This document shows positions 46,280 to 54,494 of a DNA stretch of 64,000 nucleotides, in pieces. Source of the DNA: Cellulomonas cellasea (lineage in GTDB: Bacteria > Actinomycetota > Actinomycetes > Actinomycetales > Cellulomonadaceae); assembly GCF_006538745.1 (NCBI RefSeq), contig NZ_BJLR01000017.1:1-64000 (forward strand). Direction: 5' to 3'. A program made the translations under genes and the position numbers. The notes beneath the pieces are model-generated. The model ran no database searches and was not told the DNA's origin. It saw only the letters and a program-made list of their open reading frames with translations. The number at the start of each line of letters is the position of its first letter. The stretch's first letter is position 1.

Positions 46280-48358
46280 GTGATCGTGACCGTCCTGGCC
46301 GTCGTGGCAGGCATCGTCGCGGCCTTCGTGGTCGCGGGGATCGTCAGCGCGATCGTCCGCTCCGCAGGCCGCCGCAGCGCCGTCGCCTCCGACCTGTCGC
46401 GTCGCGCGCGCAAGCCCCTGCGCGCGGTGCTCGTCGTCGTGGCGGTCTGGGTCGCCCTCGTCGTGACGACCGACGCCTCCGACACCTGGGTGCCGACCGT
46501 GCGGCACGTGCTCGTGATCGCGCTCATCGCGTGCGTCGCCTGGCTCATCGGGGCGCTCGCGTTCGTCGTGGAGGACATCGCGCTCGCCCGCTACCGCATC
46601 GACGTGCCCGACAACCGGCACGCCCGACGGGTCCGCACGCAGGTCACGGTCCTGCGCCGGGTCACGGTCGCGATCCTGGTCGTCGCCGCGGTCGCCGCGA
46701 TCCTCATGACGTTCGAGGCGGCGCGGGCCTTCGGCACCGGGCTCCTCGCGTCGGCCGGTCTGCTGTCGATCGTCGCCGGCCTCGCCGCGCAGAGCTCGCT
46801 CGCGAACCTGTTCGCCGGGCTGCAGCTCGCGTTCACGGACGCGATCCGCGTGGACGACGTCGTCGTGGTGGACGACGAGTGGGGCCGGATCGAGGAGATC
46901 ACGCTGACCTACATCGTCGTCCACGTGTGGGACGACCGGCGCCTCATCCTGCCGTCGACGTACTTCACGACCACGCCGTTCGAGAACTGGACGCGGCGCG
47001 CCGCGGACCTGCTCGGGACCGTCGAGCTCGACCTCGACTGGTCCGTGCCCGTCGAGGAGATGCGCGCCGAGCTCGCGCGCCTGCTCGACGAGACCGAGCT
47101 GTGGGACCACCGCGTCGGGATCCTGCAGGTCACGGAGGCGACCGGCGGGTACGTGCGGGTCCGGGCGCTCGCGAGCGCCGTCGACGCCCCGACCCTGTTC
47201 GACCTGCGCTGCTACGTCCGCGAAGGGCTCGTCGGGTGGCTCCAGCAGTCCGCGCCGCACGGTGTGCCGCGCACGCGTCTCGAGACGGTGCAGGACCTGC
47301 CGGGCGCACGGACCGGCTCCGCGGGCGCTGCGGCGGGGTCGCTCGGACGGCGTAGCGGCCGCCCGACCGTCGAGCCCGCGCCGCAGGGCCAGCCGGGTGA
47401 CACCCAGCGGCTCCAGCTCACGCAGACCGACGCCCGGCTGTTCACCGGCAGCATCGACGCGCTCGAGCGTTCCCGTGCGTTCAGCGGCCCCGGCTCCGAG
47501 GTCATCGCGGAGCGCGAGCAGGCCGCCGACCGCACCGACTCGCGCGGGACGCCGCGGGTCAGCGGCCCGGTGACCGTCGTCGGGCCGCCCCTGCCCGAGC
47601 CGCAGCCGGCCGACGCCGGTGACGCGCATGACGAGGCGGCACGGCACGGCTCGGCCGGTCGCGCCGCAGGGGACGACGGCGACGCCGCACGAGCGCGCGA
47701 GGCCGAGCGGGCGCACGAGGCGGACCGGGTGCGCGCCGAGGCCGAGCGTGCGCGGGCGGAGTCCGAGCGGGCGCGCCGGGATGCCGAGCGCGCGCGGGTC
47801 GACGCCGAGCGGGCGCGGGAGGCCGAGCGCGCACGCCTCGACGCCGAGCGCGCCGCCGAGCAGGAGCGCACCCGCCTCGGTGGTGGGCGTCCCGACCGCG
47901 GCGCCGACCCGTACGGCGACGCGGACGCCCGCACCACGACGGTCATGCGCCCGACCCCGGGGGAGCCGAGCCGCACGCCCAGCCGCACCTCGGTGCTCCC
48001 GGCCGAGCCGGACGCGTCGGGCTGGCGGGCGACGTGGAACCTCCCGGGCAGCGAGCACCTGACGGCGCTGCCGGGGCACGGCGACCGTCCGACGGCTCCG
48101 CCCCCGGCGCCCGAGCGCACCTCGGCGTTCCCCCGCGACACCGCGGGTGGCCGCCCCGCGGAGCCGACGGCACCCGCGCAGCCGCAGTCGCCGCCGCTCG
48201 GGACGCGGCGGCAGCGCCAGGCGCAGGCGGACGAGACCGCGGTCTTCGGCGCGGACGACGTCCAGGGCTACGGCGACAGCCGGCGCCGGGGAGCCGACCG
48301 GGACGAGGGGTCCGACGGGCCCCCGACCGCCCGGTACGACTGGCGCGGGGGCGAGTAG
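46280..48358 (+). CDS. MscS-family mechanosensitive channel with long charged C-terminal tail
   Basis: 692 residues. Three to four membrane helices up to ~200, then the pore helix/beta domain signature GLLSIVAGLAAQSSLANLFAGLQLAF with VDDVVVVDDEWGRIEEITLTYI and the PSTYFTTTPFENWTR segment. After ~350 the protein becomes a cytosolic low-complexity tail of ~340 residues. It includes an uninterrupted Ala/Glu/Arg stretch (~470-545, units like DAERARVDAERARE) likely to be a single alpha helix, and Pro/Thr/Arg-rich ends. GTG start after ACGAGG. Confidence 0.9.
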   Translation: MIVTVLAVVAGIVAAFVVAGIVSAIVRSAGRRSAVASDLSRRARKPLRAVLVVVAVWVALVVTTDASDTWVPTVRHVLVIALIACVAWLIGALAFVVEDIALARYRIDVPDNRHARRVRTQVTVLRRVTVAILVVAAVAAILMTFEAARAFGTGLLASAGLLSIVAGLAAQSSLANLFAGLQLAFTDAIRVDDVVVVDDEWGRIEEITLTYIVVHVWDDRRLILPSTYFTTTPFENWTRRAADLLGTVELDLDWSVPVEEMRAELARLLDETELWDHRVGILQVTEATGGYVRVRALASAVDAPTLFDLRCYVREGLVGWLQQSAPHGVPRTRLETVQDLPGARTGSAGAAAGSLGRRSGRPTVEPAPQGQPGDTQRLQLTQTDARLFTGSIDALERSRAFSGPGSEVIAEREQAADRTDSRGTPRVSGPVTVVGPPLPEPQPADAGDAHDEAARHGSAGRAAGDDGDAARAREAERAHEADRVRAEAERARAESERARRDAERARVDAERAREAERARLDAERAAEQERTRLGGGRPDRGADPYGDADARTTTVMRPTPGEPSRTPSRTSVLPAEPDASGWRATWNLPGSEHLTALPGHGDRPTAPPPAPERTSAFPRDTAGGRPAEPTAPAQPQSPPLGTRRQRQAQADETAVFGADDVQGYGDSRRRGADRDEGSDGPPTARYDWRGGE

Positions 48359-48576: not shown

Positions 48577-48978
48577 CTAGTGCGACGTCGACGAGCGCAG
48601 CATCTTGGCGTGCAGCTCGACGAACTCGTCGACCTGCAGCGCACGCAGCGCCGCACGCGTCCACGCGGGCACGAGCCGGGCGCCGGTGTCGCCGTGCAGC
48701 CGCACCGGGTCCGTCAGCCGGTAGACGACCCTCCGTCGCACGAGTCGGGCCTCGCCCGCCTCGAGGTTGCGCAGCCACTGCACGTCCGGACCGTAGGTCA
48801 GCGCGACGACGAACCCGCGCGCCGTCGGGAAGGCGAGGATCGGGGTCCGGTGCCGTCGGCCCGTGCGCCGCCCGACGTGGTGCAGCGTCGCGAGCGGTGG
48901 CACGTCGTCGGACAGCGCCATCATCAGCGGGTTCGTGACGCGCCGGTTCACTCGCGTGACCCACATCGGGATCGGCAT
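48577..48978 (-). CDS. Nitroreductase/deazaflavin-dependent (DUF385, Ddn-like) protein
   Basis: 133 residues. Split-barrel fold of the F420-dependent Ddn family: NPLMMALSD, ATLHHVGRRTGRRHRTPILAF (the phosphate-binding GR.SG-like motif), GFVVALTYGPDVQWLRNLEAG and a final VDEFVELH. GGGAGC precedes the ATG. Divergent from the fic gene across 85 bp, which holds the first two of four palindromes and part of the third. Confidence 0.88.
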   Translation of the reverse strand: MPIPMWVTRVNRRVTNPLMMALSDDVPPLATLHHVGRRTGRRHRTPILAFPTARGFVVALTYGPDVQWLRNLEAGEARLVRRRVVYRLTDPVRLHGDTGARLVPAWTRAALRALQVDEFVELHAKMLRSSTSH

Positions 48979-49012: not shown

Positions 49013-49082
49013 CCTTCGGAAGCTCGGTGAGCTTTCGAAGGATCTGTTGATAACCTTCCAAAGGTGCGCGACCTTCGGAAGG
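49013..49082. promoter_or_regulatory. Array of four near-palindromes spanning the fic promoter and start
   Basis: CCTTCGGAAG (49013-49022), CTTTCGAAGG (49032-49041), CCTTCCAAAGG (49054-49064) and CCTTCGGAAGG (49072-49082); consensus CCTTC-N-GAAGG, centres ~18-22 bp apart. Site 3 covers part of the -10 element TAACCT (49051-49056) and runs up to the GTG; site 4 is inside the coding region. Confidence 0.75.
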
Positions 49083-50323
49083 AAGAGACACGGCGGTCCG
49101 CCGGGCGCGCCCATGCGGGGCAGGACCAGGATGTCGCCGCATGGCCACCCCTGGGAAGTGAGCAGCGGGAGTGGATGTCGTCCGTCGCCCCCGGCCACCT
49201 CACCGTGTGGGAGCGGCATCGGATCGAGCAGCCGTACCGCTCGGCGGTCGTCCCCGCCATCGCCGACGCGAGCGTGCAGCTGCCGGTGCGCCTCCAAGCG
49301 CTTCAGCAGGACGCCGCAGCGGAGGTCGCGCGGTTCGACACCGAGGTCGCGCACCTACCTGTACCGATGCCCGCCGTCCTGCTGCGTACCGAGTCCGCGT
49401 CCTCCTCGCAGATCGAGCACCTGACCAGCTCTTCCCGCAACATCGCACTGGCGGAGCTCGGCGCGACCGACAAGGCCAACGCCGCACTCATCGTCGCCAA
49501 CACCCGCGCGATGCAGCTCGCCCTCGCGGCGGGTGACGAGGTCAACGCCGACGTCATCCTGAGAGCGCATGATGCACTCCTGGCGGCCACCGACCCCGAC
49601 GTCGCGGGCCGATGGCGCACCGAGGCCGTCTGGGTCGGCGCGTCTGCGCTGTCGCCGCACGGGGCCGACTTCGTTGCACCGCACCACGAGCACGTCCCTG
49701 GTCTGATCGAGGACCTGACCCGCTTCGCGGCGCGGCGCGACGTGCCGTCATGGGCCCACGCTGCGCTGGTCCACGCCCAGTTCGAGACGATCCACCCGTT
49801 CGTCGACGGCAACGGCCGCACCGGGCGAGTTCTCGTGCACACGATGATGCGGCGGCACGGCGTGGCCGAGCACACCACGGTCCCCGTCTCCGCAGGCCTG
49901 CTCCGGGACCCGAGCGCCTACTTCGACGCGCTGACCGCGTACCGGACCGGTGACGCCGCGCCGATCGTCGAGCGCATGTCTCACGCCGCGCTTGCCGCCG
50001 TGGCGAACGGGCGCGAGCTCGCGCGTGACTCCGTCCAGCTGCGAGAGCGGTGGGCGGAACAGATCAAGGCGCGGCGCGGAGCGGCCGCTTGGCGGTTGGC
50101 GGACGGGCTCTTCGCCCATCCCGTGGTCGACGTACGCGCCGCGGCCCGCATCACCGGGACGTCCGAGCGCGCCGCGCTGACGGCCGTCGACACGTTGGCG
50201 GAGGCCGGCGTCCTGTCCCTCGTGGCTGGCGTCCGCTGGGGTCGGGTGTGGCAGGCCCGGGAGGTCCTGGACACCGCGGACGCGTTCGCACGGCGCGCGG
50301 GGCGGCGCCGACCCGGGCGCTGA
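49064..50323 (+). CDS. Fic-family protein (class II) with C-terminal winged helix
   Basis: 419 residues. Fic_N region (~40-125), Fic core with HPFVDGNGRTGR (His244 to Arg255, fully canonical, so AMP-transferase capable), and a C-terminal winged helix (~362-392, ARITGTSERAALTAVDTLAEAG). The class II inhibitory helix is recognisable as SSQIEH (114-119), with His119 where Gly or Asn usually follows the inhibitory Glu118. GTG start, leaderless (TAACCT-N7). No separate antitoxin gene adjoins. The operator array suggests autoregulation, possibly by its own winged helix. Confidence 0.92.
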   Translation: MRDLRKEETRRSAGRAHAGQDQDVAAWPPLGSEQREWMSSVAPGHLTVWERHRIEQPYRSAVVPAIADASVQLPVRLQALQQDAAAEVARFDTEVAHLPVPMPAVLLRTESASSSQIEHLTSSSRNIALAELGATDKANAALIVANTRAMQLALAAGDEVNADVILRAHDALLAATDPDVAGRWRTEAVWVGASALSPHGADFVAPHHEHVPGLIEDLTRFAARRDVPSWAHAALVHAQFETIHPFVDGNGRTGRVLVHTMMRRHGVAEHTTVPVSAGLLRDPSAYFDALTAYRTGDAAPIVERMSHAALAAVANGRELARDSVQLRERWAEQIKARRGAAAWRLADGLFAHPVVDVRAAARITGTSERAALTAVDTLAEAGVLSLVAGVRWGRVWQAREVLDTADAFARRAGRRRPGR

Positions 50324-53138: not shown

Positions 53139-54494
53139 TCAGGCGCCCGGGAGCGACCAGCGCTGCGCGGTGTTGCCGAAGCAGTCCCAGATCTGGGTGC
53201 GCTGGCGGTCGACGGCGCGGCCGTCGGGGTTGTCCAGGCACCGGCCGGAGGCGGGGTTCCGGTAGGAGTCCCCGGAGCGCACCCAGGTCTGGTTCGACTG
53301 TCCGGGGTTGCAGTCCCAGAGCTGCACCTTCGAGCCGTTGGCGGTGCCGTAGCCCGTGACGTCCAGGCACTTGCCGAGGGCGCGGAGCGTGCCGTCCGCC
53401 CCGAACGTCCAGCGCTGGGCGGCCGTGCCGTTGCACGTGTAGAGCTGCACCGCCGTGCCGTTGGCGCTGTTGGCGTTGTCGACGTCGAGGCACTTGCCTG
53501 CCGCGCCGGACACCACCGCGCCGGTCGACGTCCCGGTGGTGGGCGGCGTCGTCGGGGTGCAGGTCCCGCGGACGACCTTGTCGACGTGCGTGGTCCCCGC
53601 CGAGCGCAGGCCCGAGACGCGGGTCGCGACCTGGGCGGGCGTGAGCAGCTCGTCGGCGGAGTGGTAGACGTAGTCGACGTCCTGCTCGTACCGGCTCGTG
53701 CCGCCGGTGTGCGACTGCAGGTCGATGAACCAGATGTTGAACGCGAGCAGCATCGGCGTCTCCGGGTACACGTGCCCGCCGTGCTGGGCGACCTGCCGGC
53801 CGTCGAGGAAGTAGCGGACCGTGCCGGCGTCGACCTGCATCACGAGGTCGTGCCACCCGGCGATGCTCCCGACGACGGGCGTACTGATGTTGTCCGACCG
53901 CCACGGGTCCGGCCGGTACGTCTCCCACGTGGTGAGGAAGAGCGTCGGGGACGTCTGGCCCCAGCCGCCGTTCGGCAGGTACTCGACGTCGGCCTCGCCG
54001 TAGGCCGGGTCGTCGGGGAAGGCCAGCGGGGTGATGCCGTAGAACGTCTGCACCACGGGGTCGCCGTCGGCCCCCGCCACCGGGGCGTCGGTGAAGCGGA
54101 CCCGGGCGGCGTACGTGCCCTCGAAGAACTTCCGCTGGTGGGAGACCTCGGCGCTGACCGTGCCGGCCGGCGTGCCGTCGGTCTGGGCCTGCAGCCGCAT
54201 CGAGCGCGCCGTCCCCGAGCCCGTGAACGTGACGTTCGACGGGGACCAGGAGGCGCCGCCGACGCCCGGTCCGCCGCCACCGCCGCGGACGCTCCAGCCG
54301 CGGGCGGCGAGCTGCGCGTCGGTCGAGGAGGTGTACGAGAAGTCGTCGAAGAGCTGCCCGCACCCCCCGGGCACCGCAGCGGCCGCCGGCGTCGCAGCTG
54401 CGGTGACCGCGGCCGCGAGCAAGAGCGGGGCAAGGGCGGCCGCGGCCAGTGCCCTCCGGATCGTCGTCTGCCGATAGAGCGCTCTCTGAGTCAC
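53139..54494 (-). CDS. Secreted GH16-like beta-glucanase with CBM13 (ricin-B) domain
   Basis: 451 residues. Signal peptide (~1-40), a jelly-roll catalytic domain (~45-300) with GEADVEYLP giving the GH16 acid triad Glu167, Asp169 and Glu171, and WHDLVMQVDAGTVRYFLDG; then a Thr/Pro linker and a C-terminal ricin-type trefoil of three QxW repeats (AQRW, NQTW, AQRW), each opening with CLD. The target is probably laminarin, lichenan or a related beta-glucan; the exact specificity is not readable. GTG start with GAGGAGG 7-8 bases upstream. Confidence 0.87.
   Translation of the reverse strand: MTQRALYRQTTIRRALAAAALAPLLLAAAVTAAATPAAAAVPGGCGQLFDDFSYTSSTDAQLAARGWSVRGGGGGPGVGGASWSPSNVTFTGSGTARSMRLQAQTDGTPAGTVSAEVSHQRKFFEGTYAARVRFTDAPVAGADGDPVVQTFYGITPLAFPDDPAYGEADVEYLPNGGWGQTSPTLFLTTWETYRPDPWRSDNISTPVVGSIAGWHDLVMQVDAGTVRYFLDGRQVAQHGGHVYPETPMLLAFNIWFIDLQSHTGGTSRYEQDVDYVYHSADELLTPAQVATRVSGLRSAGTTHVDKVVRGTCTPTTPPTTGTSTGAVVSGAAGKCLDVDNANSANGTAVQLYTCNGTAAQRWTFGADGTLRALGKCLDVTGYGTANGSKVQLWDCNPGQSNQTWVRSGDSYRNPASGRCLDNPDGRAVDRQRTQIWDCFGNTAQRWSLPGA

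Follow-up and report, generated by a model that had tools for sequence, protein, structure and literature searches.

Autorepression by a Fic protein with an HTH is already known from CccR of Yersinia pseudotuberculosis. This class II Fic protein, whose HTH is C-terminal, represses its promoter by way of inverted repeats near the -35 and -10, as documented by EMSA, footprint and reporter work (PMC9755527). CccR is described as a type VI secreted dimer with one pair of 10-bp repeats separated by a 26-bp spacer, and its authors remark how very little is known of what class II Fic proteins do and how their activity is controlled (PMC9755527). DNA binding is also described for CbFic2 of Coxiella burnetii, in which it stimulates both enzyme activity and dimerisation; that protein was studied on random DNA and histones, and the paper uses neither the term "own promoter" nor the term "inverted repeat" (PMC10628234). 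Sofic, in turn, is an anti-phage protein whose C-terminal domain moves on ATP binding, and the wording "HTH" or "DNA-binding" is absent from that paper (PMC12249575). Our search of the open-access literature, outside which lie most subscription journals and bioRxiv, found no Fic autorepression other than that of CccR and no half-site arrays of the kind described below; as far as that search reaches, the family-wide recognition code and the 19/22-bp array are new.

The window, by which we mean the whole stretch of 64,000 nucleotides of Cellulomonas cellasea DNA analysed here, holds a fic gene that resembles CccR in its class II Fic product, in the C-terminal HTH of that product and in the inverted repeats at its own promoter, the last a feature of Fic-HTH autorepressors of the CccR kind (PMC9755527). 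It resembles CbFic2 as a class II Fic protein with a C-terminal winged helix (PMC10628234). The features of the gene and its neighbour are as follows:

49064..50323, plus strand: fic, an open reading frame of 419 aa with a GTG start, encoding a Fic domain (Pfam Fic PF02661, E 1.1e-18) and a C-terminal winged helix
49403..49420, plus strand: class II inhibitory motif, residues 114-119 (SSQIEH)
49793..49828, plus strand: intact FIC motif, residues 244-255 (HPFVDGNGRTGR)
50159..50197, plus strand: recognition-helix region, residues 366-378 (TSERAALTAVDTL), with a predicted helix at 368-380 and co-variation with the operator arms
48577..48978, minus strand: divergent neighbour gene, start at 48978, candidate second target of the array

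The Fic protein and its relatives

Both motifs that the sequence-only reading had reported in the protein can be recognised, the inhibitory one with a departure from its definition at the last position. The FIC motif matches the canonical HxFx(D/E)GNGRxxR, and the product is a probable AMP-transferase. The inhibitory motif is defined as (S/T)xxxE(G/N), N-terminal and in the same chain; here S114-xxx-E118 is present, and position 119 is His where the definition has Gly or Asn. This His, to which attention had been drawn, is there but ordinary, because 37 of the 187 homologues share it, second to Asn (105) and followed by Arg (16), Gln (15) and Gly (3). The winged helix is likewise confident in an AlphaFold2 model of the protein (mean pLDDT 91), which places it at residues 341-397.

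In domain order and fold the protein is the same as SoFic of Shewanella oneidensis (SO_4266; Foldseek TM 0.64 by query, 3eqx). The PADLOC SoFic profile matches residues 76-404 (E 1.8e-59, 200 bits), and the NCBIfam SoFic equivalog scores 46.2 bits, far under its cut-off of 550. The closest solved relative is the Mycobacterium marinum Fic protein of PDB 7cb8 (phmmer E 8.2e-52, residues 26-414; Foldseek TM 0.83/0.88 and 32% identity to our model), whose structure was solved with CDP and for which we found no paper on DNA binding. Downstream of E. coli Sofic lies a small antitoxin gene, AS1 (PMC12249575), whereas none was recognised at the window's fic. On the earlier claim that there is no separate antitoxin, the comparison covered open reading frames of at least 110 aa: no flanking frame of that size recurs in more than 3 of 80 loci as a conserved partner beside fic.

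The half-site array at the fic start

Around the start codon we distinguish the following elements, the arrowheads giving the orientation of each half-site:

49013..49022, minus strand: half-site 1 (<), CTTCCGAAGG on the minus strand
49032..49041, plus strand: half-site 2 (>), CTTTCGAAGG, left arm of the core operator
49054..49063, minus strand: half-site 3 (<), CTTTGGAAGG on the minus strand, right arm of the core operator
49073..49082, plus strand: half-site 4 (>), CTTCGGAAGG, inside the coding sequence
49031..49064, no strand: core operator of 34 bp, half-sites 2 and 3, in the family's 14-N6-14 geometry
49051..49056, plus strand: putative -10 box TAACCT, 7 bp before the GTG

The region had been described as four phased CCTTC-N-GAAGG palindromes in 70 bp, and the sites themselves are real: CCTTCNGAAGG matches at 49013-49023, 49031-49041, 49054-49064 and 49072-49082 with 1, 2, 1 and 0 mismatches and start-to-start steps of 18, 23 and 18 bp, the third ending on the first base of the GTG (49064) and the fourth lying within fic codons 3-7, both as stated there. 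They are not, however, independent palindromes. The same bases are best read as one array of 10-bp half-sites, CTTYSGAAGG, in the order < > < > and spaced 19, 22 and 19 bp, with gaps between half-sites of 12 bp in the core and 9 bp in the flank. The CccR geometry of 10-bp arms and a 26-bp spacer is not matched in the window. One half-site scan gave a spacing of 19, 22 and 18 bp, which we set aside since it rested on the other reading of the palindromic site 4.

The clustering is far beyond chance. Sixty Markov shuffles of the window never placed more than 2 sites within 70 bp, and in 20,000 draws from a local 150-bp model four sites came together 0 times and three together 2 times. By itself CCTTCNGAAGG shows no enrichment within the window: with up to 2 mismatches allowed it matches 25 times, where 18.8 are expected and 8 of 100 shuffles reach 25. 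In the 4.73-Mb genome its exact form occurs at one place, site 4, and the 34-bp core is unique at up to 3 mismatches, a reversed-pattern control giving 0.

The putative -10 box TAACCT stands 7 bp before the GTG, so that the fic transcript is probably leaderless or nearly so. Among the homologues, TANNNT precedes a possible start by 5-7 bp in 106 of 187, where shuffles give 6.8; leaderless transcripts would be expected to show this placement. The box starts at operator position 31 (offset 30) in 43 of the 48 among them that have an operator and overlaps the operator in 44 of them; that of the window starts at position 21 (offset 20), unlike the usual family place. Because the core covers the -10 and the start at either box position, its placement suggests repression. 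The choice of start is supported by a sister genome of the same genus (L124), whose fic remnant has ATG at the place of the GTG at 49064.

Operators and recognition helices across the family

Almost all of the 187 homologues compared come from Actinobacteria; a few carry another label (e.g., L033). They remain from 198 loci with a match after 11 were dropped, either as short, as truncated or for having no open frame where they matched (L088, L089, L091, L095, L124, L139) or as duplicates (L086, L101, L117, L121, L145). Each was scanned, in the region before the conserved W27 codon, for an inverted repeat with 14-bp arms and a 6-bp gap. Repeats with at least 11 of 14 pairs occur in 82 homologues, where shuffles lead one to expect 3.6, and repeats with at least 13 of 14 pairs in 38, against 0 of 1870 shuffles. 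Other gap lengths give lower counts, the 75 at gaps 4 and 8 coming close to the 82 at gap 6 because neighbouring even gaps share a centre. By the scan criteria, 91 of the 187 have no accepted operator. In some loci the automatic choice took GC-rich chance palindromes, which were removed by eye: 7 operators in making the half-site spacing sets and 9 in making the cleaned 88-operator co-variation set (L049, L097, L110, L120, L126, L132, L159, L163, L172). In L097, among the two closest intact homologues, AACCTTCCAAAGGTG can be seen by eye at the start, and the script had chosen another repeat. The window's own core has 10 of 14 pairs, below the automatic selection threshold, and was entered into the co-variation sets by hand.

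Outside the core, an extra half-site in the opposite orientation lies at exactly 19 bp in 60 of 148 flanks, compared with 7 at 18 bp, 6 at 20 bp and at most 4 of 148 at any other distance between 10 and 59; a second outer half-site, in the same orientation, follows at 41 bp in 8 of 148. Under this 19/22 rule 48 of 74 operators have at least three half-sites (mean 1.2 of 74 at 16 control distances) and four of the 74 have six. The window's four half-sites obey the rule exactly. The unit in the related genes is a half-site of about 10 bases, not a palindrome. Unlike CccR, the family here spaces its 10-bp half-sites at 22 and 19 bp, strings as many as six of them into an array and varies in specificity.

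An array of CCTTCNGAAGG is not common to all the orthologues, each of which has its own arm sequence; upstream of homologues the motif gives more than lone weak hits or near look-alikes (L007, L022; others single) in 3 of 80 loci. Orthologues with the winged helix and no such array therefore do exist in the literal sense, but their own arm sequences are the better explanation. We had considered this scarcity as a refutation of the proposed switch and rejected it, since the upstream regions show each homologue's own repeat.

A later set of 39 fetched loci yielded 33 new homologues, of which 31 were testable. By the same criteria 16 have an accepted operator and 15 have none, and among the 16 an extra half-site lies at 19 bp in 10 and at 30 bp in 0.

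The wide variation of arm sequence among homologues makes a co-variation test possible, for which arm similarity was scored at positions 5-11. Given the rest of the protein, arm similarity follows winged-helix identity with a partial r of 0.226 over the 88 cleaned operators, where the largest of 1000 permutations reached 0.088 and the reverse partial was 0.077; in the 96-operator set the value is 0.194 (largest of 500 permutations 0.071, reverse 0.047). Ranked by co-variation with the arm, T373 (0.325) and R369 (0.223) come first and second of 362 columns, S367 5th and A370 10th, all four at the start of the predicted recognition helix. Columns off the helix also exceed the permuted maximum (R35 0.206, V355 0.177 and A168 0.170, where the largest of 300 maxima was 0.168), so shared descent has not been fully removed.

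The pairing can be read as a code. In the 19 operators of R369 proteins, G-A-A-G-G occupies arm positions 7-11 in 95, 100, 89, 95 and 87% of arms, and the window carries both R369, in a SERAALT helix, and GAAGG. By eye, EMAALR helices go with CCAACACTTA, TGNARRY helices with GCATCACTTA, and TVNAQ helices with CCATCGG or CCAATGG. The plasmid homologue L214, 43% identical to the window's protein, has both the helix and the arm of L071, a member of the EMAALR class. In nearest-neighbour comparisons of arm similarity the helix outpredicts the rest of the protein only among distant pairs: at no more than 70% identity it does no better (0.548 vs. 0.554), and it leads at the 60% cap (0.509 vs. 0.437) and the 50% cap (0.468 vs. 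0.300). For the new homologues, similarity to the arms of helix-nearest training operators was 0.66 vs. 0.35 and was higher in 15 of 16. Since the arms co-vary with the recognition helix, the protein's own winged helix is the likely binder of the array.

In the deeper branches (L046, L049, L209 from Sinomonas, and L192-L201) alternating half-sites are kept and the arms are framed differently, for example, without the outer CTTA, and the operator grammar seems to drift there. The window's genome also has a second family member, L002, which is 48% identical and has a recognition helix of the HTNAM class. Its operator is weak and unconvincing (9 of 14 pairs, with half-site-like pieces by eye); two members in one genome would need separate specificities.

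Proposed autorepression and its alternatives

We consider it very likely that this class II Fic protein represses its own promoter by means of its winged helix, acting on the core and the 19-22-19 array. The self-repressing Fic proposed from the sequence has gained support from an array that lies over the promoter and start and from arms that co-vary with the protein's own winged helix. A further suggestion of that reading is that AMPylation or oligomeric state could alter the binding to DNA. In the mechanism we propose, the repressor would be the C-terminal winged helix of a probable AMP-transferase, whose protomers would recognise a 10-bp half-site each through residues at the N-terminal end of the recognition helix (S367, R369, A370, T373), R369 going with GAAGG. 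Half-sites 2 and 3 would make up the core operator over the -10 region and start, and half-sites 1 and 4 would lengthen it to the alternating 19-22-19 array. Because the mean step of 20.5 bp is close to two helical turns, several protomers could sit next to one another along roughly the same face of the DNA, keeping expression low. We infer binding, repression and cooperativity alike, the 19/22-bp spacing suggesting that protomers assemble cooperatively on DNA, and the alternating orientation would require two-fold contacts of two kinds.

Lying between divergent genes and 35 bp from the start of the neighbour, the array might be bound by another regulator or serve mainly that gene, its place beside fic being incidental. 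The sister genome lends this some weight, for there most of fic is lost and the neighbour and most half-site bases are kept. Its fic lacks about residues 42-279 (some 238 codons) and is out of frame, a deletion that removes the inhibitory helix and the FIC motif and leaves the winged-helix part, which might be expressed as a free repressor. Of the half-site positions 37 of 40 agree between the two genomes, and of those between and around them 27 of 44, a difference that also counts in favour of autorepression; half-site 4 keeps only its > reading and the TAACCT box is altered. The loss looks recent, and the retained half-sites could serve the divergent neighbour, which has a weak resemblance to F420H2-dependent quinone reductases (E 0.0015; 19.1 bits, where the cut-off is 22). 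Among the fetched loci, however, this gene adjoins fic only in the window's genome and its sister, with one other match (39% identity) downstream in L025, whereas the same operator geometry recurs in homologues with other neighbours and the arms follow the Fic protein's helix. We therefore hold a regulator or target other than fic to be very unlikely.

Just as improbable, in our judgment, is that the protein binds the promoter as an activator or a two-way conditional switch and not as a plain repressor. Some half-sites do lie upstream of the core, and DNA binding can alter enzyme activity in CbFic2 (PMC10628234); yet in the window the core lies over the -10 region and start, 44 of 48 homologues have a -10 that overlaps the operator, and the parallel CccR is, as described, a repressor (PMC9755527). 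That the palindromes are RNA or DNA structure, such as hairpins at the start of the message, and not protein sites, we find scarcely credible. All the sites come close to being palindromes and site 4 falls inside the message, but alternating half-sites at a fixed 19/22 bp, co-varying with a protein helix, are not expected of hairpins, and the bulk of the array precedes the likely transcript start.

A less certain part of the proposal is that the protein has a toxic or anti-phage role, as SoFic has, and that relief of repression would be the switch. Candidates for relief are phage infection, ATP binding and self-AMPylation, ATP being named because the C-terminal domain of Sofic moves on ATP binding (PMC12249575). 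A more speculative extension, which we think unlikely though worth stating, is that the protomers form a chain in which each uses two different two-fold contacts, one for the 22-bp and one for the 19-bp step, so that the array nucleates a short filament over the promoter. Such a filament would shut the gene off and at the same time keep the enzyme in a single state of activity, and a signal that breaks it (phage infection, ATP or self-AMPylation) would free active enzyme and new expression together, the DNA acting as antitoxin.

A family with its own operators would amount to a general mode of control, and it offers a readable recognition code, e.g., R369 with GAAGG, together with a concrete, testable picture of protomers lined up on DNA. 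Relatives occur on plasmids, in 26 of 72,556 plasmid records; as they also resemble the anti-phage SoFic, the array is relevant to the question of how a single-gene defence that is potentially toxic stays silent and moves from genome to genome. On a Microbacterium plasmid (L216), fic is annotated as two overlapping open reading frames and is apparently frameshifted.

Elsewhere in the window, 46280-48358 encodes a mechanosensitive-channel protein (MS_channel_2nd, E 1.8e-13) whose C-terminal tail is charged, very long and full of Arg, Ala and Glu. The gene at 53139-54494 on the minus strand encodes a ricin-type lectin domain (E 1.8e-30) and weakly matches glycosyl hydrolase 16, and its product is probably a secreted polysaccharide-degrading enzyme.
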